DNA of 64,000 nt from Saccopteryx bilineata. Its lineage: Eukaryota; Chordata; Mammalia; Chiroptera; Emballonuridae. The notes below the pieces were generated by a model, which ran no database searches, was not told where the DNA came from, and saw only the letters and a list, made by a program, of their open reading frames with translations. Both the position numbers and the translations under genes were made by a program. Shown one piece after another: positions 2,396-64,000 of the stretch. Each line of letters starts with the position of its first letter. Within the stretch, counting starts at the first letter, position 1. Where the stretch lies: contig NC_089490.1 in assembly GCF_036850765.1 (NCBI RefSeq), forward strand, positions 101,172,074 through 101,236,073, in the 5' to 3' direction.

Positions 2396-2978
2396 GTACA
2401 TACTCTATAATACATACACATTTTATAAATTGGACAACTGATGAGTACTCAGCAAACATAAAGTACAATAATTGTGTTTGTAATAAAACAACATCAAATG
2501 GAAGAATTGCAATAGAGTGTCCAACATATAGTTGTGACTTGATGTTTTTGGCTCAGAATGTATGAATGACACATAATGCATCCAATAGCATCACTAAGAC
2601 TGTGGGTTTAGAAAGTATCAGGTCATTGACTGATAATCAATTCTTATAAGAGCCATAGATTATTATGCCATTGAAAAATATTGTGAAATAAAATCAGAGT
2701 TCAAAAATAGTATACATAAGGTTTTCCAGTGTATGTTAAATCTCAAAGAAACGAATATAATGAACTGAAACTTTCACAAGGATGGTATAGCTCAGTGGTG
2801 ATAATGTTAATCGTTTTATACATTTGTAAATTGGTTTGACTTCTAGTGGGAGCCAAAGGGAATGTTATGTAACATAAGATGATAACAACAGATGTCAGAT
2901 GATTGAGGTGGTACTCAGTGATTCTGAGGAACACTCACTGATTTTGATAGAAATTTTATTGTTAGAAATGCTAAATTG

Positions 2979-3178
2979 GGGGGAGGGGGAGGGGCACAAA
3001 AAGAACTGGATAGAGGGTGACAGGACAATCTGACTTTGGGTGATGAGTATGCAACATAATTGAACTTTAAGATAACCTGGACATATTATCTTTGAATATA
3101 TGTATCTTGATTTACTGATGTCACCCCATTAAAAATAAATACAATAGAAATTAAAAAAAAAGAAAAAAGAAAAAAAAA
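2979..3178 (+). mobile_element. 5'-truncated LINE-1 3' end with target-site duplication
   Basis: About 200 bp matching the 3' UTR of the full-length LINE-1 at 26782-32449: a G-rich run, then text such as aggacaatctgactttggg, then an A-rich tail. It is bounded by a perfect 15-bp duplication (AGAAATGCTAAATTG at 2964-2978 and 3179-3193). This is a short LINE-1 insertion that kept only the 3' UTR. The perfect duplication implies fairly recent insertion. Confidence 0.9.
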
Positions 3179-7947: not shown

Positions 7948-8495
7948 TGTTGGGCAGATAAGTTTGCAAAATTTGTGTTATTTGATTTTGCTCACTGTTA
8001 TTGTTAAAAATGGTGCTGCCCATGTGAATGATGCTGCCCAGGTGAAACAGCTAATTACCTTCCTGCTTGGGAAGGAGCTTTGTTATGCTAATGTGTGCTG
8101 GAGGAGGGTTTTTGTGCTAAAAGGTTTTAAGAGAAGAAGGAGGAGGAAGAGGTCATGTTGTTGAAGAGAAAGCAGCCAAGATGGTGGGGTGCTGAAGGAG
8201 AAGCCAGTTTGTGCAGAGAGAAGGAGATGGGGAACAGAGGTGAGGGGCTTTGTGAGCTCCACTGAACTGGTGGGGGCCCTTGATTCTGGGAAAACTCCGA
8301 TGTGTCAGTAGCTTTGTGAGTGCTGAATGAGTCGGTTTTGGAGCCCAGTGTGTTTTTTACTCACCAGCTGGGTGCAAGGCTAGAATAAACGGATAGCCCA
8401 CCATTTCTTGGCTCCGTTGTTTCTCTACCATCTGTCTGAATCTAATGGAAACCTGCATATGCCTGGTTGTGATGGCCATGACTACTGGCCATACA
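7948..8495 (+). repeat. 5' LTR of the ERV-like element
   Basis: Starts TGTTGGGCAG and ends ctggccataca. It closely resembles the downstream LTR at 9533-10092, apart from small indels in a purine run near 8140. An AATAAA polyadenylation signal lies at about 8383-8388, followed by the conserved tail ggctccgttgtttctctacc shared with the two solo LTRs. The motif CAAGATGG near 8178 resembles a YY1 core site. Confidence 0.88.
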
Positions 8496-9532: not shown

Positions 9533-10092
9533 TCTTGGGCAAATAAGTTTGCAAAATTTGTGTTATTTGATTTTGCTCACTGTTATTGTTAAAAATGGTG
9601 CTGCCCATGTGAATGATGCTGCCCAGGTGAAACAGCTAATTACCTTCCTGCTTGGGAAGGGGCTTTGTTATGCTAATGTGTGCTGAAGGAGGGTTTTTGT
9701 GCTAAAAAGTTTTAAGAGAAGAGAAGGAGGAGGAGGAAGAAGCCATGTTTTTGAAGAGAAGGCAGCCAAGATGGTGGGGTGCTGAAGGAGAAGCCAGATA
9801 GTGCAGAGAGAAGGAGATGGGGAACAGAGGTGAGGGGCTTTGTGAGCTTTGCTGAACTGGTGGGGCTCTTTGATTCTGGGAAAACTCGGATGTGTCAGTA
9901 GCTTTGTGAGTGCTGAATGGGTGGGTTTGGAGCCCTCTGTGTGTTTGTGTTTACTTGCTGACTGGTTGCGAGGCTAGAATAAAGGGATAGCCCACCATTT
10001 CTTGGCTCCATTGTTTCTCTACCATCTGTCTAAATCTAATGAGAACCTGCACCTGAATGGCAGCTGTGATGGCTGTGGCTACTGGCCACACA
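9533..10092 (+). repeat. 3' LTR of the ERV-like element
   Basis: Pairs with 7948-8495. Differences include TC for TG at its start, an extra gag triplet run near 9722-9740 and scattered substitutions. An AATAAA-type signal occurs at about 9978. It ends ggccacaca directly before the CTATG duplication. The differences between the two LTRs mean the insertion is not recent. Confidence 0.88.
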
Positions 10093-18534: not shown

Positions 18535-19188
18535 TGTTGGTCGAATAAGTTTGTAAATATGACATATATGTTTGCTTGCTTATAGTTTCCATTGGATATG
18601 GGGAACAGGCTGTAAGCAGGCAGGGTCCTTATAGACTAAGGTTAGTTTTAAGACTAAGCTTTTCTACACACCCCTGACTGTTGCATGATAGGGGGTGGTG
18701 CACTCTTATGAGGAATCCCATTTATGCCTCAGATAAGTGATTTTGTATCAGAGACTTCCTTGTTTGTATATTGGATTCAAGGTTTTGATTTCTACACTAT
18801 AAAATGGAGCAGAGGAGCCCATACAGGAGGAGAGCAGAGAAAGGCCACGTGGAGGAGAGGAGAAGCAGCCAAGATGGCAGAGTGCTGAAGGAGAAGCCAG
18901 TTTGTGCAGAGTTTGTGCAGAGAGAAGGAGATGGGGAACAGAGGTGAATAAGGCTGGTGAGGTAGAAACCTTTGATTCTAGGAAACTCAGATAAGTCAGT
19001 GGCTTTGGGAGCCCTGAATGGAAAGGGAAGTGTTTTCCCACTGTGTGTATTTCTCGCCCTCCGGGTGCAAGCTAGGATTAAAGTTAATGGCCCACCAGTT
19101 CTTGGCTCCGTTGTTTTGTTACTGTCTGTCCAAATCAAATGCGAACCTGCACAGGCCAGGCAGCTGTGATGGTGGCTGTGGCTTTACA
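18535..19188 (+). repeat. Solo LTR related to the ERV at 7.9-10.1 kb
   Basis: Starts TGTTGGTCGAATAAG and ends tggctttaca. Its 3' half (agcagccaagatggcagag, a ggagatggggaacagaggtg block, cttggctccgttgtttt) matches the LTRs at 7948 and 9533 and the solo LTR at 20702. Flanks GCACC (18530-18534) and GCCCC (19189-19193) are a 5-bp duplication with one mismatch. Its 5' (U3) half is different and longer than in the relatives. Left by recombination between two LTRs of a provirus. Confidence 0.8.
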
Positions 19189-23510: not shown

Positions 23511-23513
23511 ACT

Positions 23514-23914
23514 TTTTTTTTTTTTTTTTTTCATTTTTCTGAATCTGGAAACAGGGAGAGACAGTCAGACAGACTCCCGCATGCGCCCGACCGGGATCCA
23601 CCCGGCACGCCCACCAGGGGCGGTGCTCTGCCCCCCAGGGGGCGATGCTCTGCCCATCCTGGGCGTCGCCATATTGCGACCAGAGCCACTCTAGCGCCTG
23701 AGGCAGAGGCCACAGAGCCATCCCCAGCGCCCGGGCCATCTTTGCTCCAATGGAGCCTCGGCTGCGGGAGGGGAAGAGAGAGACAGAGAGGAAAGCGCGG
23801 CGGAGGGGTGGAGAAGCAAATGGGCGCTTCTCCTGTGTGCCCTGGCCGGGAATCGAACCCGGGTCCTCCGCACGCTAGGCCGACGCTCTACCGCTGAGCC
23901 AACCGGCCAGGGCT
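23514..23914 (-). mobile_element. Young long tRNA-derived SINE with target-site duplication
   Basis: Full length, about 400 bp, antisense. Begins (minus) gccctggccggttggctcag, includes an RNA polymerase III B-box-like GGTTCGATTCC, a purine/pyrimidine tract, a CpG-rich 3' half, and ends in the T run at 23514-23531. Duplicated target ATTTCGTGAGACTTTT flanks it (before the T run and from 23915). High CpG retention and exact duplication imply recent insertion. The frames here (23446-23694, 23485-23739, 23531-23713 and 23691-23873) are SINE-derived, not genes. Confidence 0.92.
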
Positions 23915-26767: not shown

Positions 26768-26781
26768 AAAAGTATATATTC

Positions 26782-27029
26782 GAGTGACGTCACGGAAATG
26801 GCGCCGTGAGAAGCGCGTCCGACAGCTCTCCCCTAAATCACAACAAATTTATCAACTAGAAACAGAAAAATTTATCCTCGGAGCATTCCGGAGTTCCACA
26901 CAAACTGAAAGCAAAAGGACTGTTATCACTTGAATCTGAGAGACGAGGGTGTGGAGGAAGCTACCGCAGCGACGCTCATTCAAGCCGCGAGGGAGTGCGC
27001 CTGCGTGCTATCAATAAGACCACCCTCAG
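26782..27029 (+). promoter_or_regulatory. LINE-1 5' UTR, short form, with CRE and YY1-like motifs
   Basis: The first bases carry TGACGTCA (26785-26792), the palindromic ATF/CREB site, then GAAATGGCGCC (26795-26805), close to a YY1 core. The second LINE-1 has the same pair at 57991-58010. CpG-rich. Only the first 100 or so bases and the last 25 before ORF1 resemble the 2.4-kb 5' UTR of the second element; the middle is different. Whether this short leader still drives transcription is not known. Confidence 0.75.
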
Positions 27030-28025
27030 ATGCCGATAAGAAAGAGGAAATCGAATATTATGGATACAAAAGAAAGAGAGGTAACACAAATAGATGTGGA
27101 AAAATCTATGGAGAAAAGACTTAACATATTGGAAGCCTTGGAGCTAAATGACAGAGAATTTAAAATAGAAATCTTAAAAATACTCAGAGATATACAAGAA
27201 AACACAGAAAGGCAATATAGGGAGATCAGAAAACAACTCAATGAACACAAAGAATATATTACCAAGGAAATTGAAACTATAAAAACAAATCAAACAGAAA
27301 TGAAAAACTCAATTCACGAGCTGAAAAACGAGGTAACAAGCTTAGCTAACAGAACAGCCCAGATTGAAGATAGGATTAGTGAAATAGAAGATAAACAACT
27401 TGAGGCACAACAGAGAGAAGAAGAAAGAGACTCAAAAATAATAAAAAACGAGAAAGCCCTACAGGAATTGTCTGACTCCATCAGAAAGAATAACATAAGA
27501 ATAATAGGTATATCAGAGGGAGAAGAGAAAGAAAATGGAAAGGAGAATATACTCAAACAAATAATAGACGAGAACTTCCCAAGCCTGTGGAAGGAACTAA
27601 AGCCTCAAATTCAAGAAGCAAAGAGAACACCAAGTTTTCTTAACCCCAACAAACCCACTCCAAGGCACATCATAATAAAGATGACACAAACCAATGACAA
27701 AGAAAAAATTCTCAAGGCAGCCAGGGAAAAGAAGAGTACAACATATAAAGGAAGGCCTATTAGATTATCATCAGATTTCTCAGCAGAAACTCTACAAGCT
27801 AGAAGAGAGTGGACCCCAATATTTAAAGCCCTGAAAGAGAGGAACTTTCAGCCAAGAATACTATACCCATCAAAGCTATCCTTCAAGTATGAAGGAGATA
27901 TAAAAACATTCACAAATACAGAAAAGATGAGAGAATTTATCAACAGAAAGCCCCCACTCCAGGAAATACTAAGGGGGGTTTTCCAACCAGATTCAAAGAA
28001 CAAAAGAAAACAACACCACAAGTAA
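27030..28025 (+). CDS. LINE-1 ORF1 protein (RNA-binding nucleic-acid chaperone), intact
   Basis: 331 aa, close to the 338 aa of the human protein. By family knowledge, ORF1p trimerises and coats LINE-1 RNA in cytoplasmic particles needed for retrotransposition. Visible here: basic N-terminus (MPIRKRKSN), a long heptad-rich coiled coil at about residues 25-150 (many Lys/Glu, with 'LNEHKEYITKEIETIK'-like stretches), an RRM-like domain from about residue 154 (start NNIRIIGISEGEE) to about 245, and a C-terminal domain (YKGRPIRLSSDFSAETLQAR, ILYPSKLSFKYEG) to about 310. The start at 27030 was chosen as the first in-frame ATG and gives near-family length; a second ATG (MDTKERE) at 27060 is an alternative. 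No stops or frameshifts. Confidence 0.97.
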   Translation: MPIRKRKSNIMDTKEREVTQIDVEKSMEKRLNILEALELNDREFKIEILKILRDIQENTERQYREIRKQLNEHKEYITKEIETIKTNQTEMKNSIHELKNEVTSLANRTAQIEDRISEIEDKQLEAQQREEERDSKIIKNEKALQELSDSIRKNNIRIIGISEGEEKENGKENILKQIIDENFPSLWKELKPQIQEAKRTPSFLNPNKPTPRHIIIKMTQTNDKEKILKAAREKKSTTYKGRPIRLSSDFSAETLQARREWTPIFKALKERNFQPRILYPSKLSFKYEGDIKTFTNTEKMREFINRKPPLQEILRGVFQPDSKNKRKQHHK

Positions 28026-28349
28026 CAGCTCCACCAAGAACACAATAAAACCAAATTTAACTGTGACAACAAAGGAAAAAAAGGGGGGAGAGGATGGAGA
28101 TTAACAGTAGCAAAGGATGATGAAGTGCAGAAATACTTATAAGATAGGGTACTACAATGAATATGGTAGGTACCCTTTTCATTACTTAATGGTAACCACC
28201 CTTAAAAAAACCACCACAAAAACACTTGACTTAAAAAAGGTAGCAACAGAGGAAAGAAGTATGGAACACAAACAAACAAAAACAAATGATAGAAAAACAA
28301 AAGAGAAGAATCAAACTAGATACAAAACTAACAGAAAGCAATTTATAAA
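28026..28349 (+). other. LINE-1 inter-ORF spacer
   Basis: About 324 bp between the ORF1 stop and the ORF2 start, much longer than the 63 bp in human L1. It contains an 80-codon frame (28117-28359) that overlaps the ORF2 start by 10 bases; see that entry. Confidence 0.85.
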
Positions 28350-28359
28350 ATGGCAGTAG
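28117..28359 (+). CDS. Short spacer ORF overlapping ORF2 start, coding status doubtful
   Basis: An 80-codon frame, Lys/Thr-rich, ending in a TAG that overlaps the ORF2 ATG by ten bases. The equivalent frame is also open in the second LINE-1 (61475-61735, 86 codons) with no indels. But by eye amino-acid differences between the copies are frequent, about a third of positions, although the DNA is much more alike, which argues against selection for the protein. It may be a by-product of composition or part of a translation-coupling leader for ORF2. No domain recognised. Confidence 0.3.
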
Positions 28360-31300
28360 GGAACCCACAAGTGTCAATAATTACACTAAATGTAAATGGA
28401 TTAAACTTACCAATAAAAAGACACAGAGTAGCAGAATGGATTAAAAAAGAAAATCCAACTATATGCTGCCTACAAGAAACACATCTAAGCAACAAGGATA
28501 AAAACAAATTCAAAGTGAAAGGCTGGAAAACAATACTCCAAGCAAACAACACCCAAAAAAAAGCAGGCGTAGCAATACTCATATCGGATAATGCTGACTA
28601 CAAGACAGAAAAAGTACTCAGAGACAAAAATGGTCATTTCATAATGATTAAGGGGAAGTTGAATCAAGAAGACATAACAATCCTTAATATATATGCACCA
28701 AACCAAGGAGCACCAAAATATATAAGACAGCTACTTATTGACCTTAAAACAAAAACTAACAAAAATACAATCATACTTGGAGACCTCAATACACCGCTGA
28801 CGGCTCTAGATCGGTCATCCAAACAGAGAATCAATAAAGATATAGTGGCCTTAAACGAAATACTAGAACACCTGGATATGATAGACATCTACAGGACACT
28901 TCATCCCAAAGCGACAGAGTATACATTTTTCTCTAGTGTACATGGAACATTCTCAAGAATTGACCATATGTTGGGCCACAAAGACAATATCAGCAAATTT
29001 AGAAAAATTGAAATTGTACCAAGCATATTTTCTGATCATAAAGCCTTGAAACTAGAATTCAACTGCAAAAAAGAGGGGGAAAAACCCACAAAAATGTGGA
29101 AACTAAACAACATACTTCTAAAAAATGAATGGGTCAAAGAAGAAATAAGCGCAGAAATCAAAAGATATATACAGACAAATGAAAATGAAAATACGACATA
29201 TCAGAATCTCTGGGATGTAGCAAAAGCAGTAATAAGAGGAAAGTTCATATCACTTCAGGCCTATATGAACAAACAAGAGAGAGCCGAAGTAAACCACTTA
29301 ACTTCACACCTTAAGGAACTAGAAAAAGAAGAACAAAGACAACCCAAAACCAGCCGAAGAAAGGAGATAATAAAAATCAGAGCAGAAATAAATGAAATAG
29401 AGAACAGAAAAACTATAGAAAAAATCAATAAAACAAGGAGCTGGTTCTTTGAAAAGATCAACAAAATTGACAAACCCTTGGCAAGACTCACCAAGGAAAA
29501 AAGACACAGGACTCAAATAAATAAAATCCAAAATGAAAGAGGAGAGATCACCACAGACATCATAGAAATACAAAGAATTATTGTACAATACTATGAAAAA
29601 TTATATGCCACCAAATACAACAATCTAGAAGAAATGGATAAATTCCTAGAACAATACAACCTTCCTAGACTGAGTCAAGAAGAAGCAGAAAGCCTAAATA
29701 GACCAATCAGCAGGGAGGAAATAGAAAAAACTATTAAAAATCTCCCCAAAAATAAAAGTCCAGGCCCAGACGGTTATACTAGTGAATTCTATCAAACATT
29801 CAAAGAAGACTTGGTTCCTATTCTACTCAAAGTCTTCCAAAAAATTGAAGAAGAAGCAATACTTTCAAACACATTTTATGAGGTCAACATAACCCTCATA
29901 CCAAAACCTGGCAAGGATGGCACAAAGAAAGAAAACTACAGACCAATATCTCTAATGAATACAGATGCTAAAATACTAAACAAAATACTGGCAAACCGAA
30001 TACAAGAACATATTAAAAAAATAATACATCATGATCAAGTGGGATTCATCCCAGAATCTCAAGGATGGTTCAACATACGTAAAACGGTTAACGTAATACA
30101 CCATATCAACAAAACAAAGAACAAAAACCACATGATCTTATCAATAGATGCAGAAAAGGCTTTTGATAAAATACAACACAATTTTATGTTTAAGACTCTC
30201 AACAAAATGGGTATAGAAGGAAAATATCTCAACATGATAAAGGCCATATATGATAAACCATCAGCCAACATCCTATTAAACGGCATAAAACTGAGGACTT
30301 TCTACCTTAAATCAGGAACAAGACAGGGTTGTCCACTCTCTCCACTCTTATTCAACGTGGTGCTAGAAGTTCTGGCCAGAGCAATCAGACAAGACAAAGA
30401 AATAAAAGGCATCCATATCGGAAAAGAAGAAGTAAAGCTATCACTTTTTGCTGATGATATGATCCTATACATCGAAAACCCGAAGGACTCCACAAAAAGA
30501 TTATTAGAAACAATAAACCAATACAGTAAGGTCGCAGGATACAAAATTAACATACAAAAGTCCATAGCCTTTCTATATGCCAACAATGAAATATTAGAAA
30601 ACGAACTCAAAAAAATAATCCCCTTCACGATTGCAACAAAAAAAATAAAATACCTAGGAATAAACATAACAAAGAACGTAAAGGACCTATATAATGAAAA
30701 TTACAAAGCATTGTTAAGGGAAATCGAAAAAGATACAATGAGATGGAAAAATATTCCTTGTTCTTGGATAGGAAGAATAAATATAATCAAAATGGCCATA
30801 TTACCCAAAGCAATATACAAATTTAATGCAATTCCCATCAAAATCCCTATGAGATTTTTTAAAGAAATGGAACAAAAAATCATCAGATTTATATGGAACT
30901 ATAAAAAACCCCGAATAGCCAAAACAATCCTAAGGAAAAAGAATGAAGCTGGGGGCATTACAATACCTGACTTTAAACTATATTATAGGGCCACGATAAT
31001 CAAAACAGCATGGTATTGGCAGAAAAATAGACACTCAGACCAATGGAACAGAATAGAAAGCCCAGAAATAAAACCACATATATATGGTCAAATAATCTTT
31101 GATAAAGGGGCCAACAACACACAATGGAGAAAAGAAAGCCTCTTCAACAAATGGTGTTGGGAAAACTGGAAAGCCACATGCAAAAGAATGAAACTCGACT
31201 ACAGCCTGTCCCCGTGTACTAAAATTAATTCAAAATGGATCAAAGACCTAAATATAAGACCTGAAACAATAAAGTACATAGAAGAAGACATAGGTACTAA

Positions 31301-32177
31301 AATCATGGACCTGGGTTTTAAAGAACATTTTATGAACTTGACTCCAATGGCAAGAGAAGTGAAGGCAAAGATAAATGAATGGGACTACATCAGAATTAAA
31401 AGTTTTTGCTCAGCAAGAGAAACTGATATCAAAATAAACAGACAGCCAACTATATGGGAACTGATATTTTCAAACGACAGCTCAGATAAGGGCCTAATAT
31501 CCAAAATTTACAAAGAACTCATAAAACTCAACAACAAACAAACAAACAATCCAATAAAAAAATGGGAAGAGGACATGAACAGACACTTCTCCCAGGAAGA
31601 GATACAAATGGCCAACAGATATATGAAAAGATGCTCAGCTTCATTAGTTATTAGAGAAATGCAAATCAAAACTACAATGAGATACCACCTCACTCCTGTT
31701 AGATTAGCTATTATCAACAAGACGGGTAATAGCAAATGTTGGAGAGGCTGTGGAGAAAAAGGAACCCTCATTCACTGTTGGTGGGACTGTAAAGTAGTAC
31801 AACCATTATGGAGGAAAGTATGGTGGTTCCTCAAAAAACTGAAAATAGAACTACCTTATGACCCAGCAATCCCTCTACTGGGTATATACCCCAAAACCTC
31901 AGAAACATTGATACGTGAAGACACATGTAGCCCCATGTTCATTGCAGCACTGTTCACAGTGGCCAAGACATGGAAACAACCAAAAAGCCCTTCAATAGAA
32001 GACTGGATAAAGAAGATGTGGCACATATACACTATGGAATACTACTCAGCCATAAGAAATGATGACATCAGATCATTTACAGCAAAATGGTGGGATCTTG
32101 ATAACATTATAAGGAGTGAAATAAGTAAATCAGAAAAAAACAAGAACTACATGATTCCATACATTGGTGGAACATAA
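28350..32177 (+). CDS. LINE-1 ORF2 protein (endonuclease and reverse transcriptase), intact
   Basis: 1275 aa, exactly the human length. It nicks target DNA and reverse-transcribes LINE-1 and SINE RNA at the nick. Endonuclease domain residues align with human numbering: N14, E43 (in LQETHL), D145 and N147 (in GDLNT), D205 (in SRIDHM), D229 and H230 (in SDH). The reverse transcriptase active site is FADD with D702 and D703, also the human positions; upstream are [15 protein letters not shown] and [13 protein letters not shown] motifs. The C-terminal Cys/His cluster is C1130, C1134, H1142 and C1147 (CWRGC...HCWWDC). No stops. The ATG at 28350 is preceded by ataaa and overlaps the spacer ORF. Confidence 0.98.
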
Positions 32178-32449
32178 AAATGAGACTAAGAGACATGGAC
32201 AAGAGTGTGGTGGTTACCATGGGTGGGGGGGGAGGGAGGACATGGGAGGGAGGGAGGGAGAGAGTTAGGGGGAGGGGGAGGGGCACAGAGAACTAGATGG
32301 AGGGTGGCGGAGGACAATCTGACTTTGGGCGAGGGGTTTGCAACATAATTTGATGACAAAATAACCTAGACATGTTTTCTTTGAATATATGTACCCTGAT
32401 TTATTAATGTCATCCCATTACCATTAATAAAAATTTATTAAAAAAAAAA
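32178..32449 (+). other. LINE-1 3' UTR with G-rich tract and polyadenylation signal
   Basis: A purine tract at about 32221-32283 contains several runs of 3-8 G and could form G-quadruplex structure, as known for other mammalian L1 3' UTRs. AATAAA at 32426-32431 precedes a short A tail to 32449. Truncated copies at 2979 and, older, 40860 start in the same G-rich tract. Confidence 0.85.
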
Positions 32450-32536
32450 AAAAGTATATATTCAATCCTATGCTTTCACTGCTGGCTGAGTTTCCATTAC
32501 AAGTAAGTGGCCTGTTTCCCTTTTGGAATAAGGAAC

Positions 32537-39292: not shown

Positions 39293-39415
39293 CTGCTATT
39301 CTTTATTAATGACCAGTTTGTGGCATTCTAAATGGACTATGACATCATACAGTGGAATTAGGTAGTTTTCATCCTTCTGTGATTACATATTTCACTAAGC
39401 ATAATGTCCTCCAGG

Positions 39416-39868
39416 ACAACAGGTACATGAAAAGATGCTCAATATCAATTATCAGGAAAATAGCGAATCAAATCTACAATAAGATTATTACCTCATACCT
39501 GTTAGGATGGCTATTAAAAGTATTAAGATAAGATAACAAATAACGGCAAGAATTTGGAGAAACTGAAACCCTTGTATACTGTTGGTCGGAATATAAAATG
39601 GTGCAGCCACTATGGAAAGTGGTATGAAGGCTCCTCAGAAACTAAAAATGAAACTACCATATGATCCAACCACCTCACATATGGATATTTACCCAAAAGA
39701 ACAGAAATTAGGATCTTGAAAAGACGTCTGCACTCCCATGTTCATTGCAGCATTACTCACAATAGCCAAGACATGGAAACAAATGTCCAGTGACGTGTCA
39801 ACTAATAAAGAAAATGTACTATATACATACAATGGAATATTATTGGCTTTAAAAAGGAAATTGTTCTT
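39416..39868 (+). pseudogene. Old LINE-1 ORF2 C-terminal fragment
   Basis: The DNA parallels the end of ORF2 of the intact element: gaaaagatgctcaatatc, then ggatggctattaaaag, then tgttcattgcagcattac and gccaagacatggaaacaa, then tacaatggaatattattgg. Frames are interrupted by stops and indels. It lies head-to-tail against an antisense LINE-1 3' end, so it could be one 5'-inverted insertion or two copies. Confidence 0.85.
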
Positions 39869-43775: not shown

Positions 43776-44227
43776 AATAGTCATTTGGTTTTTTGTTTGT
43801 TTTTGTTTTTGTTTTTTTCTTTTTTGCATTTTTCTGAAGCTGGAAACAGGGAGAGACAGTCAAGACAGACTCCCGCATGCGCCCGACCGGGATCCACCAG
43901 GCACGCCCACCAGGGGCGACGCTCTTCCCACCAGGGGGCGATGCTCTGCCCATCCTGGGCATCACCATGTTGCGACCAGAGCCACTCTAGCGCCTGAGGC
44001 AGAGGCCACAGAGCTATCCCCAGCGCCCGTGCCATCTTTGCTCCAATGGAGCCTTGGCTGCGGGAGGGGAAGAGAGAGACAGAGAGGAAGGCGCGGCGGA
44101 GGGGTGGAGAAGCAAATGGGCGCTTCTCCTATGTGCCCTGGCGGGGAATCGAACCCGGGTCCTCCGCACACTAGGCCGACGCTCTACCACTGAGCCAACC
44201 GGCCAGGGCCAATAGTCATTTGGTTTT
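43776..44227 (-). mobile_element. Young long tRNA-derived SINE with 17-bp target-site duplication
   Basis: SINE at 43793-44210, antisense, with the same structure as the copy at 23514. Exact duplication AATAGTCATTTGGTTTT (43776-43792 and 44211-44227). Unusually, its poly(A) (seen as T-rich) has a gtttgtttttgttttt pattern. CpG-rich. The frames here, 64-148 codons on both strands, come from the SINE. Confidence 0.93.
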
Positions 44228-48267: not shown

Positions 48268-48682
48268 ACTGAGGAAATTTTTGTATTTTTCTGAAGCTGG
48301 AAATGGGGAGAGACAGTCAGACAGACTCCCGCATGCGCCTGACCGGGATCCACCCAGCACGCCCACCAGGGGGCGACGCTCTGCCCACCAGGGGGCGATG
48401 CTCTGCCCCTCCAGGGCGTCACTCTGTTGCGACCAGAGCCACTCTAGCACCTGGGGCAGAGGCCAAGGAGCCATCCCCAGCGCCCAGGCCATCTTTGCTC
48501 CAATGGAGCCTCGGCTGCGGGAGGGGAAGAGAGAGACAGAGAGGAAGGAGAGGGGGAGGGGTGGAGAAGCAGATGGGCGCCTCTCCTGTGTGCCCTGGCC
48601 AGGAATTGAACCCGGGACTCCTGCACGCCAGGCCGATGCTCTACCACTGAGCCAACCGGCCAGGGCACTGAGGAAATTTTTG
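48268..48682 (-). mobile_element. Young long tRNA-derived SINE with 16-bp target-site duplication
   Basis: SINE at 48284-48666, antisense, bounded by an exact duplication ACTGAGGAAATTTTTG (48268-48283 and 48667-48682). Lacks a T run at the 3' edge beyond a short gtattttt, so the poly(A) tail is nearly absent. Carries two tandem CCACCAGGGGGCG motifs at 48363-48375 and 48385-48397. Six overlapping frames (74-137 codons) are SINE-derived. Confidence 0.93.
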
Positions 48683-57611: not shown

Positions 57612-57988
57612 TAGCCCTGGCCAGTTGGCTCAGTGGTAGAGTAAGGCCAGGCATGTGGATGTCCCAGGTTTGATTCCCAGTCAAAGCACACAGAAGAGGC
57701 AACCATCTGCTTTTCTACCCCTCACCCTCTTGCTTCTCTCTCCTTTGCTCTCTCTCTTCCCCTCCTGCTGCCATGGCTCAACTGGAGCGAGTTGGCCCTG
57801 GGTGCTAAGAATGGCTCCATGGCCTCTGCCTCAGGTGCTAAAATGGCTCCTGTTGCTATGGAGCAAGGGCCCCAGATGGGCAGAGCATTGCCCCCTAGTG
57901 GGTTTGGGGGTGGATCCTGGTCGAGGAACATGCGGGAGTCTGTCTCCATCTCCCTTCCTCTCACTAAATTAAAAAACAAAACAAAACA
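57612..57988 (+). mobile_element. Long tRNA-derived SINE with A-rich tail, abutting a LINE-1
   Basis: Sense copy: head agccctggccagttggctca, B-box-like GGTTTGATTCC, second half to gggagtctgtctccatctcc, tail aaaaaacaaaacaaaaca. Its last bases touch the 5' end of the LINE-1 at 57989 with nothing between. Frames of 70-106 codons are SINE-derived. Contains TGCCCCCTAGTGG at about 57889-57902, a CTCF-like core on the minus strand. Confidence 0.9.
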
Positions 57989-58199
57989 GATGACGTCAGA
58001 GTAATGGCGGAGTAGGAAGCGATACCGATAAATCTCCCCCAAAACTCAACAAGATCTTCAACCAGAAACAGAAAAACCTATACTTGGAGCCTCCAGATGC
58101 TTCACAATACACCCGAAGGTATGGTCGAGTGAAAAATTGGCTAAATATATAACCAAATCCTGAAGGAAATAGGGAGTAAGAAATGCTCCGCCTTCCTCA

Positions 58200-58637
58200 C
58201 TAACCTAAACAGGGCGGCGTTCTCTGGTAACTGTGAATATAGAAACTGAGGCGGGCAAAGGGGGTGAATACATCCAGGCCGCGCACAAAAGGCCGAACCA
58301 GGCTGTGGCACGGAGATCCTAGCGGAGGAAAAACTGTTCCTGTGGCAAGCCGGGCAATACAAGCTAACACTCGCGCCAAACCCAAACAAAGAAAGACAAG
58401 CGGGGCAGCCATTTTACCCGTTCTCCTGGTCGGTGCGCAGTTAGTGGGCGAGAGATCTCTTCCTAAGCCCCAGAAGTGGGTGTCCGTGTTGCCCCACAGA
58501 GAGGCAGGGTCAGAGGCCTTTCTGTGGGCCGAAAGCAGAATCTCTGGGCAGCTCCAGTGCCCTGGGAAAGCCGCGCACGGGAGAGAGCGAGAACTAATTC
58601 CAACGGTGGAAATTTTCCGTGCTGGTGAGGGTTTCAC
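58200..58637 (-). CDS. Antisense ORF in the LINE-1 5' UTR (ORF0-like position), doubtful
   Basis: A 145-codon frame antisense to the 5' UTR, starting inside the first tandem unit. The next unit carries a related antisense frame (58638-58859, 73 codons, and 58594-58851, 85 codons in another frame). Primate L1 has an antisense ORF0 of about 70 aa in the same location; sequence similarity cannot be shown. GC-rich CpG-rich DNA tends to stay open by chance, and a 141-codon sense frame overlaps. No domain recognised. Confidence 0.25.
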   Translation of the reverse strand: MKPSPARKISTVGISSRSLPCAAFPGHWSCPEILLSAHRKASDPASLWGNTDTHFWGLGRDLSPTNCAPTRRTGKMAAPLVFLCLGLARVLACIARLATGTVFPPLGSPCHSLVRPFVRGLDVFTPFARLSFYIHSYQRTPPCLG

Positions 58638-59040
58638 TCAGGGAAACGCGGCCGGCCTCATATCCTGGTGTGCGCGCGCAGATAGGTAGTGAGCTATTCC
58701 TCCGAGTGCCTCGGCAGGGCGCGCCCGTGTTATCGCACAGAGGGGCAGAGTCAGGGGCCTTTGTGTGGGCAAAAGCGGAATCTCGGGCCACCCCAGCGCC
58801 TTGCAAAAGCCGCGCACGGGGACGGAGCGAGAGCGAATTCCAGTGCTGCAAATTTCCATGCGGTTGGGGGTTTCACTCAGAGCGTGAGACTACTGGCCGG
58901 ATATCCTGGTCTGCGCGCGCAGATAGTGAATGAGAGTTTCCTCCAAGCACCCCAGAAGTGGGTGCCTGCCTGTGTTACCGGACAGAGTGGCAGAGCCAGA
59001 GGTCTTTGAGTGGGCGGAAAGCCCGCCTGATTATGCTAGC
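58430..59040 (+). repeat. Tandem 5' UTR units, about 240 bp each
   Basis: Unit starts: 58430 (tcggtgcgcagttagtg), 58669 (tgtgcgcgcgcagatagg) and 58910 (tctgcgcgcgcagatagtg). Each follows a tatcctgg or tctcctgg block. Shared internal blocks are gggtttcactcag, aaagccgcgcacggg and cagaggggcagag-type text. The third unit decays after about 130 bp. Divergence between units is visible but modest. Confidence 0.85.
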
Positions 59041-59454
59041 AGCTCTGACTGACTGAGCCTTACCCAGAGCCCTGAGCTGAGTGGAAATAGAGTGGGGAGT
59101 TGCCAGCTCTTTGAACCTCTTACTATCCAGGCAGAGGCAGCAACAACCCCATAGCTGGATTATCAGGCTACTAATTGAGGAAGGAAAGACTAGGAGAAAG
59201 GCTCCAGGAACACGGACTCTCTCACTGTTGGAGCCTATGAAAGCTAATGAGCCTTGACTCCCAACGAGACTAAAGCACAATACATGACATTGCCATAGAG
59301 ACTTATCAACTGCGAACCTCTACCTGAGCGTGCCAAAGGGGCAGAACCTGGGGTACAGAGTCACCGACCAGGAAGAGGGAGAGAAAAGAAAAAACAAGAA
59401 GATAACCTCTCAAAATCAAGAATAATCTGCAGACTTTATAACCTATCCCATTTT

Positions 59455-60360
59455 ATTATATTTGTTCGTTTGTTTCTCTTATCTTCATTCTTGATACTTT
59501 TTTTCCTCCTCCAATTTGGCCGATTAACTCTCTGCTTGTCTTACTCTCTACTCTCCTTGAACTACACTACCCATAAGTGTTACATCTCCCATTATCTTTT
59601 TTCTCCTCTTCCTTTCTCTCTATGAGGGTTGCACTCCAAAACCCTTAACTCTCTCTCTCTCCTTTCTTTTTTCTTCTTTTACTGGTTCCCTCTTTTTTTC
59701 TCTCTCTCTCTTTCTTTTCTCCCTCTATATTAGTTTCTTCCTTTCTCCTTTACATCTCCTCTCATTCAAACCTCAATAACAAACAAATTATTTTATCTGG
59801 GACTCAAACTTATGTTTGTGGCATTTTGGGGGGTTTTTACTTCACCTTTTTAACTCACTAGCAGTGCTCCCATCCCTGGCTCTCCATTTTATCTAGTTCT
59901 TGTTCCACTAAGTACAATAGTATTTTTTTAATTTGTCCCCCCATTTTTCTGTTCTCTTATTCCTCTCATCATAACTCTTAGACAACACCAACACCTAAAA
60001 GCAAATCATTTTATTCTTGACCCAAATTTTTTCCTTATTTGCTTTTTGTGGGTCCATACTGCCCCCCCTTTTTTTTTTCCTTTTCTTTCTTTTTTTTTTT
60101 TTTGCCCCTTTATTACTTTTCCCCAATTCAGGCCCTCCATCACAGGCATTGTTTGTTATAATTCACAGTTCACCACAAGATTTTCTCAAGAAAAAGGGGA
60201 GAGGAGAGGAAAAAAGGAGGGGGGGAATAATTTCCTTTTTTTAAAAATTATTATTTTATTTTTCTTTATTTCATTATTAATTTTTTTTAAAAAAAACAAC
60301 TCTTTTTGATGTTTTATTTTTTTTTAACTTTTTATTCTTTATTAAATCTCATTAATACTA
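59455..60360 (+). other. Pyrimidine-rich tract before ORF1
   Basis: Roughly 900 bp of T/C-rich sequence with ctctctct and tttctttttt runs and two A-rich interruptions near 60185-60300. The intact LINE-1 lacks it. Short plus frames here (75-87 codons) are low-complexity artefacts. Confidence 0.8.
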
Positions 60361-60379
60361 TCAACAAAACCACCCTCAG

Positions 60380-61401
60380 ATGCCATTAAGGAAGAGAAAA
60401 TCAAATATCATGGATACAAAAGAAAGAGAGGTAACACAGCTAGATGAGGAAAAAATCTATGGAGAAAAAATTTAATATATTGGAAACCTTGGAGCTAAAT
60501 GACAGAGAATTCAAGATAGAAATCCTAAAAATCCTCCGAGATATACAAGAAAACACAGAAAGGCAATTTAGGGAGCTCAGAAAACAACTCAATGAACACA
60601 AAGAATATATGTCCAAGGAAATTGAAACTATAAAAACAAATCAAACAGAGATGAAAAACTCAATTCACGAGCTGAAAAACGAAGTAACAAGCTTAGCTAA
60701 TAGAACAGGTCAGATAGAAGAGAGGATTAGTGAAATAGAAGACAAGCAACTTGAGGCACAACAGAGAGAAGAAGAAAGAGACTCAAAAATTAAAAAAAAA
60801 TGAGATAGCCCTACAAGAATGATCTGACTCCATCAAAAAGAATAACATAAGAATAATAGGTATATCAGAGGGAGAAGAGAGAGAAAATGGAATGGAGAAC
60901 ATACTCAAACAAATAATAGATGAGAACTTCCCAAGCCTGTGGAAAGAACTAAAGCCTCAAATTCAAGAAGCAAACAGAACTCCGAGTTTTCTTAACCCCA
61001 ACAAACCTACTCCAAGGCATATCATAATGAAATTGACACAAACAAACAGCAAAAAAAAAATTCTCAAGGCAGCCAGGGAAAAGAAGAATACAACATATAA
61101 AGGAAGGCCCATTAGATTATCATCAGATTTCTCAGCAGAAACTCTACAAGCTAGAAGAGAGTGGACCCCAATATTTAAAGTCCTGAAAGAGAGAAACTTT
61201 CAGCCACGAATACTATACCCATCAAAGCTATCCTTCAAATATGAAGGAGAAATAAAAACATTCACAGATACAGAAAAGATGAGGGAATTTATCATCAGAA
61301 AACCCCCACTCCAGGAATTACTAAAGGGGGTTCTCCAATCAGATACAAAGAACAGAAAAAAAACAGAGCCACAAGTAAAAGCTCCAAGAAGAACACAATA
61401 A
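60380..61401 (+). pseudogene. LINE-1 ORF1, broken by two frameshifts and a stop
   Basis: Starts with ATGCCATTAAGGAAG, parallel to the intact ORF1. Lesions by comparison with the intact copy: an extra A in the A run at 60450-60455; one extra base in the A-rich stretch at about 60786-60799; a TGA at 60820-60822 where the intact copy has TTG. The C-terminal half (60892-61401) is open again and carries the RRM and C-terminal sequence. Not translated as a complete protein. Confidence 0.92.
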
Positions 61402-61474
61402 AACCAAATTTAAACTGTGACAACAACAAAAAGAAAGAGGGGGAGAAGATGGAGATTAACAGTAGCAAAGGACG

Positions 61475-61735
61475 ATGGAGTGCAAAAGTACTCACAAAAT
61501 AGTTCGCTACAATGAACAGGGTAGGGACCCTTTTCATTACTCAAAGGTAACCACCATTGAAAAAACCACCACAGAAGCACATGAGATAAAAAAGATAGCA
61601 ACAGAGGAAAGATGTATGGAATACAACCAAATAAAAACAAAAGATAGAAAAACGAAAGAGAAGGATCAAACAAGACACAAAACTAACAGAAAGCAAGATA
61701 TAAAATGGCAATACGGAACTCACAAGTATCAATAA
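61475..61735 (+). other. Spacer ORF equivalent, 86 codons
   Basis: Parallel to the 80-codon frame of the intact element, same frame and no indels, but the stop that overlaps ORF2 is mutated so the frame runs on a few codons. Many amino-acid changes relative to the other copy. Confidence 0.35.
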
Positions 61736-64000
61736 TTACACTAAGTGTAAACGGATTAAACTCACCAATAAAAAGGCACAGAGTAGCAGAATGGATTGAA
61801 AAAGAAAATCCAACTGTATGCTGCCTACAGGAAACTCATCTAAGTAACAAGGATAAAAACAAATTCAAAGTGAAAGGCTGGAAAACAATACTGCAAGCAA
61901 ATAACATCCAAAAAAAAAGCAGGTGTAGCAATACTCATATCGGATAATGCTGACTACAAGACAGGAAAAGTACTCAGAGATAAAAATGGCCATTTCATAA
62001 TGGCTAAGGGGACACTGAATCAAGAAGACATAACAATTCTTAATATATATGCACCAAACCAAGGAGCACCAAAATATATAAGACAGCTACTTATTGACCT
62101 TAAAACAAAAACTGACAAAGATACAATCATACTTGGAGACCTCAATACACCGCTGATGGTTCTAGATCGGTCATCCAAACAGAGAATCAACAAAGACATA
62201 GTGGCCTTAAACAAAACACTAGAGCACCTGGATATGATAGACATCTACAGGACATTTCATCCCAAAGTGACTGAGTATACATTTTTCTCCAGTGTACATG
62301 GATCATTCTCAAGAATTGACCATATGTTGGGCCACAAAAACAACATCAGCAAATTCAGAAAAATTGAAGTTGTACCAAGCATATTTTCTGATCATAAAGC
62401 CTTGAAACTAGAATTCAACTGCAAAAAAGAGGAAAAAAATCCCACAAAAATGTGGAAACTAAACAACATACTTTTAAAAAATGAATGGGTCAAAGAAGAA
62501 ATAAGTGCAGAGATCAAAAGATTTATACAGACTAATGAAAATGACAATACGACATATCAGAATCTATGGGATGCAGCAAAAGCAGTGATAAGAGGGAAGT
62601 TCATATCACTTCAGGCATATATGAACAAACAAGAGAGAGCCCAAGTGAAACACTTAACTTCCCACCTTAAGGAACTAGAAAAAGAAGAACAAAGACAACC
62701 CAAAAGCAGCCGAAGAAAGGAGATAATAAAAATCAGAGCAGAAATAAATGAAATAGAGAACAGAAAAACTATAGAAAAAATTAATAGAACAAGGAGCTGG
62801 TTCTTTGAAAAGATCAATAAAATTGACAAACCCTTGGCAAGACTTACCAAGGAAAAAAGAGAAAGAACTCATATAAACAAAATCCAAAATGAAAGAGGAG
62901 AAATCACCACGGACACCGTAGATATACAAAGAATTATTGTAGAATACTATGAAAAACTTTATGCCACTAAATTCAACAACCTAGAAGAAATGGATAAATT
63001 CCTAGAACAATACAACCTTCCTAGACTGAGTCAAGAAGAAGCAGAAAGCCTAAACAGACCTATCAGTAGAGAAGAAATAGAAAAAACCATTAAAAACCTC
63101 CCCAAAAATAAAAGTCCAGGCCCTGACGGCTATACCAGCGAATTTTATCAAACATTCAAAGAAGACTTGGTTCCTATTCTACTCAAAGTCTTCCAAAAAA
63201 TTGAAGAAGAAGCAATACTTCCAAACACATTTTATGAGGCCAACATAACCCTCATACCAAAACCAGGCAAGGATGGCACTAAAAAAGAAAACTACAGACC
63301 AATATCTCTAATGAATACAGATGCTAAAATACTAAACAAAATACTAGCAAATCGAATACAACAACATATTAAAAAAATAATACATCATGATCAAGTGGGA
63401 TTCATCCCAGAATCTCAAGGATGGTTCAACATACATAAAACGGTTAACGTAATACACCATATCAACAAAACAAAGAACAAAAACCACATGATCTTATCAA
63501 TAGATGCAGAAAAGGCTTTCGATAAAATACAACACAATTTTTTGTTTAAGACTCTCAACAAAATGGGTATAGAAGGAAAATATCTCAACATGATAAAGGC
63601 CATATATGATAAACCATCAGCCAACATCATATTAAATGGCACTAAACTGAAGGCTTTCCCCCTTAAATCAGGAACAAGACAGGGTTGTCCACTCTCTCCA
63701 CTCTTATTTAATGTGGTACTAGAGGTTCTCGCCACAGCAATCAGACAAGACAAAGAAATAAAAGGCATCCATATCGGAAAAGAAGAAGTAAAGGTATCAC
63801 TTTTTGCAGATGATATGATCCTATACATCGAAAACCCCAAAGAATCCACAAAAAGACTACTAGAAACAATAAGCCAATACAGTAAGGTCGCAGGATACAA
63901 AATTAACATACAGAAGTCAATAGCCTTTCTATATGCCAACAATGAAACAACTGAGAAGGAACTCAAAAGAATAATCCCCTTCATGATTGCAACAAAAAAA
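61705..64000 (+). pseudogene. LINE-1 ORF2, one frameshift in the endonuclease, otherwise open to window edge
   Basis: Begins at 61705 parallel to the intact ORF2. An A run has nine A at 61910-61918 where the intact copy has eight, which shifts the frame at about residue 72 and gives a stop near 61947. After the shift the original frame stays open to position 64000: the endonuclease motifs (GDLNT, SRIDHM, SDH) and the FADD active site at about 63800 are intact. Only one lesion in ORF2 is seen in the window; the C-terminus is off the end. Confidence 0.92.

Follow-up and report, generated by a model that had tools for sequence, protein, structure and literature searches.

The closest described relatives of the element analysed here are the human SpIREs, retrocopies of spliced LINE-1 transcripts, which are reported to make up 131 of the 6609 annotated full-length copies of L1PA1-L1PA6 (about 2%, all three human classes taken together) (Larson et al., 2018, PMC5860796). 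Intra-5'UTR SpIREs such as human SpIRE 97/622 have a gap between an early donor and a downstream acceptor, keep both ORFs and bear the hallmarks of target-primed insertion, and the same source describes them as severely reduced in promoter activity and reduced in retrotransposition, SpIREs being in general dead ends in human (PMC5860796). It also reports that new L1 splicing has arisen through changes in the human 5'UTR (PMC5860796). Beside the human work there is a comparative study of LINE-1 chimeras, in which a coding-competent L1PA2 SpIRE at RAP1GDS1 is said to have been rescued by the co-opted promoter of a host gene (PMC13174262). No SpIREs in bats were found in the literature that we searched, which is weak evidence of absence, most subscription papers lying outside the scope of the search.

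We have analysed a stretch of 64,000 nucleotides from Saccopteryx bilineata (henceforth the window), in which positions 26782-32449 are a LINE-1 flanked by exact 14-bp target duplications (Table 1). The LINE-1 is real, young and intact in its coding parts; at the same time it is a spliced retrocopy (SpIRE), of which this genome has hundreds. The window copy itself is therefore a known kind of element, sharing with human SpIRE 97/622 an internal 5'UTR gap between an early donor and a downstream acceptor, the two ORFs and the insertion hallmarks, and with the RAP1GDS1 element its coding competence; what deserves attention is the abundance of spliced copies. The donor lies after base 224 here and after base 97 in SpIRE 97/622, the intron measures about 2.1 kb against about 0.5 kb, and the spliced share of about 24% compares with the human figure of about 2% for all three classes (PMC5860796). 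The reduction in promoter activity was measured for the human element, whereas here it is predicted by analogy.

Structure and coding capacity

The first-pass annotation had placed the element at 26768..32463, and these coordinates proved correct, the span taking in both copies of the perfect 14-bp duplication that it had also described. Its two ORFs (331 and 1275 aa) are uninterrupted, as claimed, in the reading frames. ORF1 has the Pfam domain Transposase_22 together with its dsRBD-like domain, and ORF2 has Exo_endo_phos and RVT_1. In a comparison with human ORF2p (8sxt), residues 4 to 1274 of ORF2 aligned and the numbering agreed at either end (1948.9 bits). The endonuclease residues, the FADD motif and the Cys/His cluster noted earlier were all recovered with the numbering of human ORF2p, namely N14, E43, D145, N147, T192, D205, S228 and H230, F700-A701-D702-D703, and C1130-X3-C-X7-H-X4-C. 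From what is generally known of the human protein, we take these residues to have a catalytic role. Domain order, catalytic residues and the 1275-aa length of ORF2 are as in human LINE-1 (8sxt, 8uw3, 2yko). An ORF1p-type RNA-binding protein encoded upstream of an endonuclease/reverse transcriptase ORF2, a target duplication and a 3' A-rich tail identify the element as a LINE-1. Competence requires intact ORFs and a working internal promoter; both ORFs are intact, yet ca. 2.1 kb of the 5'UTR is absent.

Table 1. Features of the two LINE-1 copies in the window (positions counted from the first base of the window)
Feature	Position	Strand	Basis or remark
Left target site duplication, AAAAGTATATATTC	26768..26781	+	Identical to 32450-32463
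5'UTR exon 1	26782..27005	+	Matches 5' start of unspliced sister copies
Exon-exon junction, GCG/TGCTATC	27005..27006	+	Ca. 2.1 kb missing relative to unspliced sister copies
Exon 2, remaining 5'UTR up to ORF1	27006..27029	+	Comparison with sister copies
ORF1, L1 ORF1p, 331 aa	27030..28025	+	Pfam PF02994 and PF17490; PDB 2yko, E 2.3e-63
Intergenic region, 324 bp	28026..28349	+	Between ORF1 and ORF2; aligns throughout with the older copy, two 1-base gaps
ORF2, endonuclease and reverse transcriptase, 1275 aa	28350..32177	+	Pfam, PDB, residue check
3'UTR: G-rich tract (about 32221-32284), AATAAA-like signal, A-rich tail	32178..32449	+	Direct reading
Right target site duplication	32450..32463	+	Identical to 26768-26781
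Second, older L1 copy	57988..64000	+	5'UTR about 2.39 kb; frames broken by 1-base indels; runs off the window edge

The short 5'UTR and its splice junction

The 5'UTR of the window copy is short: it measures 248 bp, whereas that of the older copy reaches about 2.39 kb. The short 5'UTR, the 324-bp intergenic region and the older copy itself are absent from the first-pass annotation. We searched the assembly (2.61 Gb, 256 contigs) with the ORF2 protein, scoring 36 places among 286361 first-look candidates, which makes all counts from this search lower bounds, and retrieved 20 near-identical copies with 5.3 kb upstream of ORF2. In 17 of these 20 there is extra sequence between exon 1 and window position 27006, and in three (L013, L022, and L029) there is none. 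The extra stretch measures ca. 2.07-2.17 kb and falls between window positions 27005 and 27006 in 16 of the 17 long copies; the seventeenth, L019, has a different exon 1 (90% identity to that of the window over 144 bases) and stands outside the donor count of 16. Exon 1 of the window copy is 94.6-100% identical to the 5' start of the unspliced copies in 16 of 17 cases (212-227 aligned bases), and the match with unspliced L015 is 100% over 220 bp.

In the read-through copies the ends of the extra stretch read G/GTGAGTCAGCC ... CTAAYTAG/TGCTATC. The stretch starts with the donor in GGTGAGTCAGCC (GTGAGT) in 16 of the 16 long copies shown, and a polypyrimidine tract with CTAATTAG or CTAACTAG precedes TGCTATC in 17 of 17. 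Judged by sequence, then, the extra stretch has canonical spliceosomal intron ends, and in the short copies the two exons are joined exactly. An internal 5'UTR gap bounded exactly by a donor and an acceptor found in full-length siblings, together with the insertion hallmarks at the window copy (target duplication and A-rich tail), is what characterizes a SpIRE. Target duplications were computed for four of the eight short copies known to us (the window copy, L013, L022, and L029), and repeated flanks of 16-17 bp were found for L013 and L022. The scripted search for such duplications found none for short L029 or for the long L012, L017, and L026; for the long L018 and L027 it gave no more than 7 bp.

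Frequency of spliced copies

Fifteen further places of the 36, viewed over 201 bases each, added 4 short copies, 10 long ones (classed from the intron end alone) and one, L030, that was left unclassified. Altogether 27 of the 35 classified copies are long and 8 are spliced (7 of 34 if the window copy is left aside). Genome-wide, a 34-base pattern across the spliced junction had 890 matches and a 34-base pattern across the unspliced donor 2789 (up to 3 mismatches in both cases, reversed controls 0). This puts the spliced share at ca. 24% of the copies that reach the junction point, close to 8/35, but the value is approximate, since older variants (e.g., L010 and L027) fall beyond the limit of 3 mismatches and the second halves of the two patterns sit in different sequence. 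The junction, the intron ends in the sister copies and these counts are direct observations. With a quarter of the copies spliced, and with donor and acceptor placed unlike those of human L1, they suggest that intra-5'UTR splicing may be a general hazard of LINE-1 leaders, and possibly a heavy tax on one family.

What was lost with the intron

In the five unspliced copies measured, GC content is 58-59% and the CpG observed/expected ratio 0.75-0.81 over the initial 1.1 kb of the intron, with two GGGCGG boxes in each copy, and the second half has 34% GC. This CpG-island-like segment, missing from the short copies, probably held promoter sequence, an argument that rests on its CpG content and on the human analogy. 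The short leader retains TGACGTCA at element base 4 and ATGGCG at base 17, which we take to be a CRE-like and a YY1-core-like motif, respectively. Transcription of the window copy is probably poor if neither exon 1 by itself nor a promoter nearby can drive it. The first-pass annotation had called it possibly mobile. The coding side of that statement holds, both ORFs being intact; against mobility stand the loss of ca. 2.1 kb of 5'UTR, the weak promoters of the human equivalents and an exact 40-base search that found no young descendant; much of the promoter was probably lost, and onward mobility is probably low. Even a full-length L1 whose ORFs are both intact and whose duplication is perfect is not necessarily competent.

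The leaders also differ in upstream ATGs, with 1 in the short leader against 5-10 in the 17 unspliced ones. However, the unspliced leader is itself depleted (6-7 observed against about 18-20 expected under a Markov model, three copies), which disfavours the idea that the spliced RNA is the sole translated form and suggests that the unspliced RNA may be translated as well.

Age and relatives

ORF2 is free of stops in 34 of the 36 scored places, with 99% identity for all but the window's own 100% match, and ORF1 is open in 15 of the 20 retrieved copies (by a simple script). The first-pass annotation had judged the insertion recent and proposed a genome-wide count of near-identical copies; that count yields no fewer than 33 further copies with a stop-free ORF2 at 99% identity, and together with the few private substitutions it supports a recent date. 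The family has therefore been recently active, and from the number of intact copies LINE-1 does not appear to be fading in this genome. Over ca. 5.4 kb, 14 substitutions (their positions computed without the misaligned L025) are private to the window copy in a comparison with 20 others, as is one 1-base deletion. Under a neutral rate near 2e-9 per site and year, the window copy would be roughly a million years old or less. Five of the 14 "private" positions have the same base in the older window copy, and two more of the letters co-occur in three old copies. Between 28056 and 30080 the window copy departs at several letters from the young relatives with which it was compared and agrees there with the older window copy or with other old copies; these old alleles may stem from gene conversion or template switching.

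Possible descendants of the window copy were sought by an exact search with a 40-base stretch that includes two private letters, a search that would overlook any copy cut to less than about 2.6 kb or carrying a mutation in that stretch. It returned 4 places, the window and three old copies (89-91% identical), so the candidates were discarded; the two letters are not strictly private, because these three old copies carry both. A search of this genome for the joined flanks, i.e., the empty site, gave no match when as many as 3 mismatches were allowed, as expected for a single assembly and silent on other individuals or species. A protein search for relatives of ORF2 gave 472 matches; among the best 120 of these the named hosts were mammals, the best-scoring being the donkey (71% identity). 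A scan of viral contigs turned up a single locus related to ORF2 (64% identity) and was uninformative. Among other bats, intact LINE ORFs have been reported from Rhinolophus ferrumequinum and two Myotis species (PMC10239488).

Origin of the spliced copies

We consider it very probable that the window LINE-1 is a SpIRE-type insertion derived from a transcript spliced in its 5'UTR, and that such splicing is recurrent in this genome. A full-length L1 transcript would have been spliced from the donor after base 224 to an acceptor that lies ca. 2.1 kb further downstream, immediately ahead of ORF1. The L1 machinery itself would then have reverse transcribed this RNA, in which both proteins were still encoded, into the genome, leaving the exact target duplication, the A-rich tail and the clean exon-exon join. 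The product could encode ORF1p and ORF2p, minus the CpG-rich part of the 5'UTR, and recurrence of the process would lead to the quarter or so of comparable copies that are short. That splicing and not another type of deletion caused the gap we infer from DNA comparisons. An assembly collapse or a chance deletion is scarcely credible: the GC-rich first half and AT-rich second half of the unspliced 5'UTR can cause assembly errors, but the identical base-exact join is found in 8 of the 35 classified copies and in the 890 genome-wide pattern matches. Very improbable too, if a little less so, is that the short 5'UTR is a deletion inherited within a self-propagating short lineage with a native short promoter. 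Hundreds of short copies exist, their exon 1 still has the CRE-like and YY1-like motifs, and leader length is known to vary widely, the L1 5'UTRs of horse and rhinoceros spanning 305 to 2855 bp (PMC5872511); however, the missing stretch stops exactly at the canonical splice sites of the unspliced copies, and a single clade of short copies is rejected. A tree of the 20 copies (built downstream of the junction and excluding L025, whose tail is misaligned) needs 4 changes of the short/long label and rejects a single clade of its 4 short copies (p-AU 8.5e-5), and with four short copies added (24 rows, 8 of them short) there are 7 label changes and a single clade is rejected once more (p-AU 8.4e-4). 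Neither tree groups the labels more closely than shuffling does. The trees are shallow, with 11 of 17 inner forks open for 20 rows and 10 of 21 for 24 rows, and the starred branches by themselves require just 2 label changes; recombination or gene conversion between copies could also scatter the labels. Shallow as it is, the tree supports several putatively separate origins of the short copies, and since they do not form one clade, splicing would have recurred. One case for inheritance was the pair of short copies L022 and L047, which are strongly joined (99/98) and have 8 alleles common to them alone among the 24 rows. We dropped them as candidates for a re-mobilised SpIRE, for unspliced L038, available in small pieces, has 6 of the 7 alleles checked there and also the one next to the junction, which makes 7 of the 8 (the remaining one is at window position 28118). 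No short ancestor is therefore needed, independent splicing from one unspliced sublineage explaining the pair.

It could also be argued that the window copy is an ordinary full-length and fully active source element, for which the short 5'UTR is irrelevant. The open ORFs, the catalytic residues and the exact duplication would all agree with this, and a single upstream ATG could even help translation. We nevertheless regard it as decidedly unlikely, as the missing ca. 2.1 kb includes the ca. 1.1 kb of CpG-rich sequence (five copies measured), the human equivalent is severely reduced in promoter activity and retrotransposition (PMC5860796), and the exact search with the private 40-base stretch recovered no young descendant. 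A bolder extension of recurrent splicing, somewhat less improbable but still unlikely, is that this LINE-1 family is in effect a two-exon element, with routine splicing of the leader, the spliced RNA as a common template and some spliced copies transcribed and jumping again. Some of them would stay transcribed because exon 1 retains the start-site motifs, and a defective by-product would have become an alternative, short form in which the family lives. We found no proof of onward jumping by spliced copies, the promising pair L022/L047 having dissolved.

The older copy and the source of the splice sites

Identity between the two window copies is 92.8% across 3637 aligned bases, among which there are six 1-base indels, and dN/dS between the copies is about 0.2, as expected for lineages that have long needed working proteins. 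In the 5'UTR of the older copy a 241-bp unit is repeated in tandem about 2.2 times (58484-59015). This 5'UTR aligns with the unspliced young one over the first 119 bp (72%) and from position 1044 onward (67%); for positions 120-1043 of the unspliced leader, donor included, no alignment was found in the older copy. Likewise, window positions 26901-27007 (107 bp) match the older copy at chance level (score 22, with 146 of 200 shuffles as high or higher), and their origin became clear only once young copies were compared. Splice-site scoring on the older copy gave candidate sites that proved irrelevant.

Because the segment with the donor has no alignable counterpart in the older copy, the donor probably arrived with a replaced 5'UTR segment. 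This would resemble the human 5'UTR changes reported to create L1 splicing (PMC5860796), and is a case for how 5'UTR turnover alters splicing. At the acceptor position the young copies have TTAGTGCTATC, the older window copy has AATACTATC, as do the old copies L055 and L057, and old L056 has TTAGTGTTATT. The acceptor end is thus TTAG in the young copies and L056 and AATAC in the other three, and the acceptor may be either a gain of the young family or, as L056 would allow, ancestral.

The intergenic region of human LINE-1 is about 63 bp, so that the 324 bp found here are long by comparison. They are also long against the median of 63 bp reported over 31 species (PMC4072516), and the spacer is aligned throughout in the older window copy. 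In length it can be likened to that of the reconstructed megabat L1 lineage 1, which is extinct and has an inhibitory spacer of 445 bp, retrotransposition being down about 26-40 fold (Yang et al., 2014, PMC4072516). Here the 324-bp spacer is that of the young window copy, with an alignable counterpart along its whole length in the older one.

Other repeats in the window

Two further fragments of older L1 are present: 39414-39782 comes from ORF2 and is 71% identical to the window copy, and 2976-3166 comes from the 3' end and is 80% identical to it. A direct repeat of about 559 bp in a G-rich stretch (7950-8495 and 9535-10092, 90% identity, ca. 1.6 kb apart) has weaker relatives near 18817 and 20904 and is possibly LTR-like or another repeat family. 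A dispersed repeat of about 400 bp is found at 23513-23913, 43808-44209, and 48278-48666 (90-95% identical among the three) and has an internal 22-bp tandem of the GCCCACCAGGGGGCGATGCTCT type, features that to our mind recall rhinolophoid bat SINEs.
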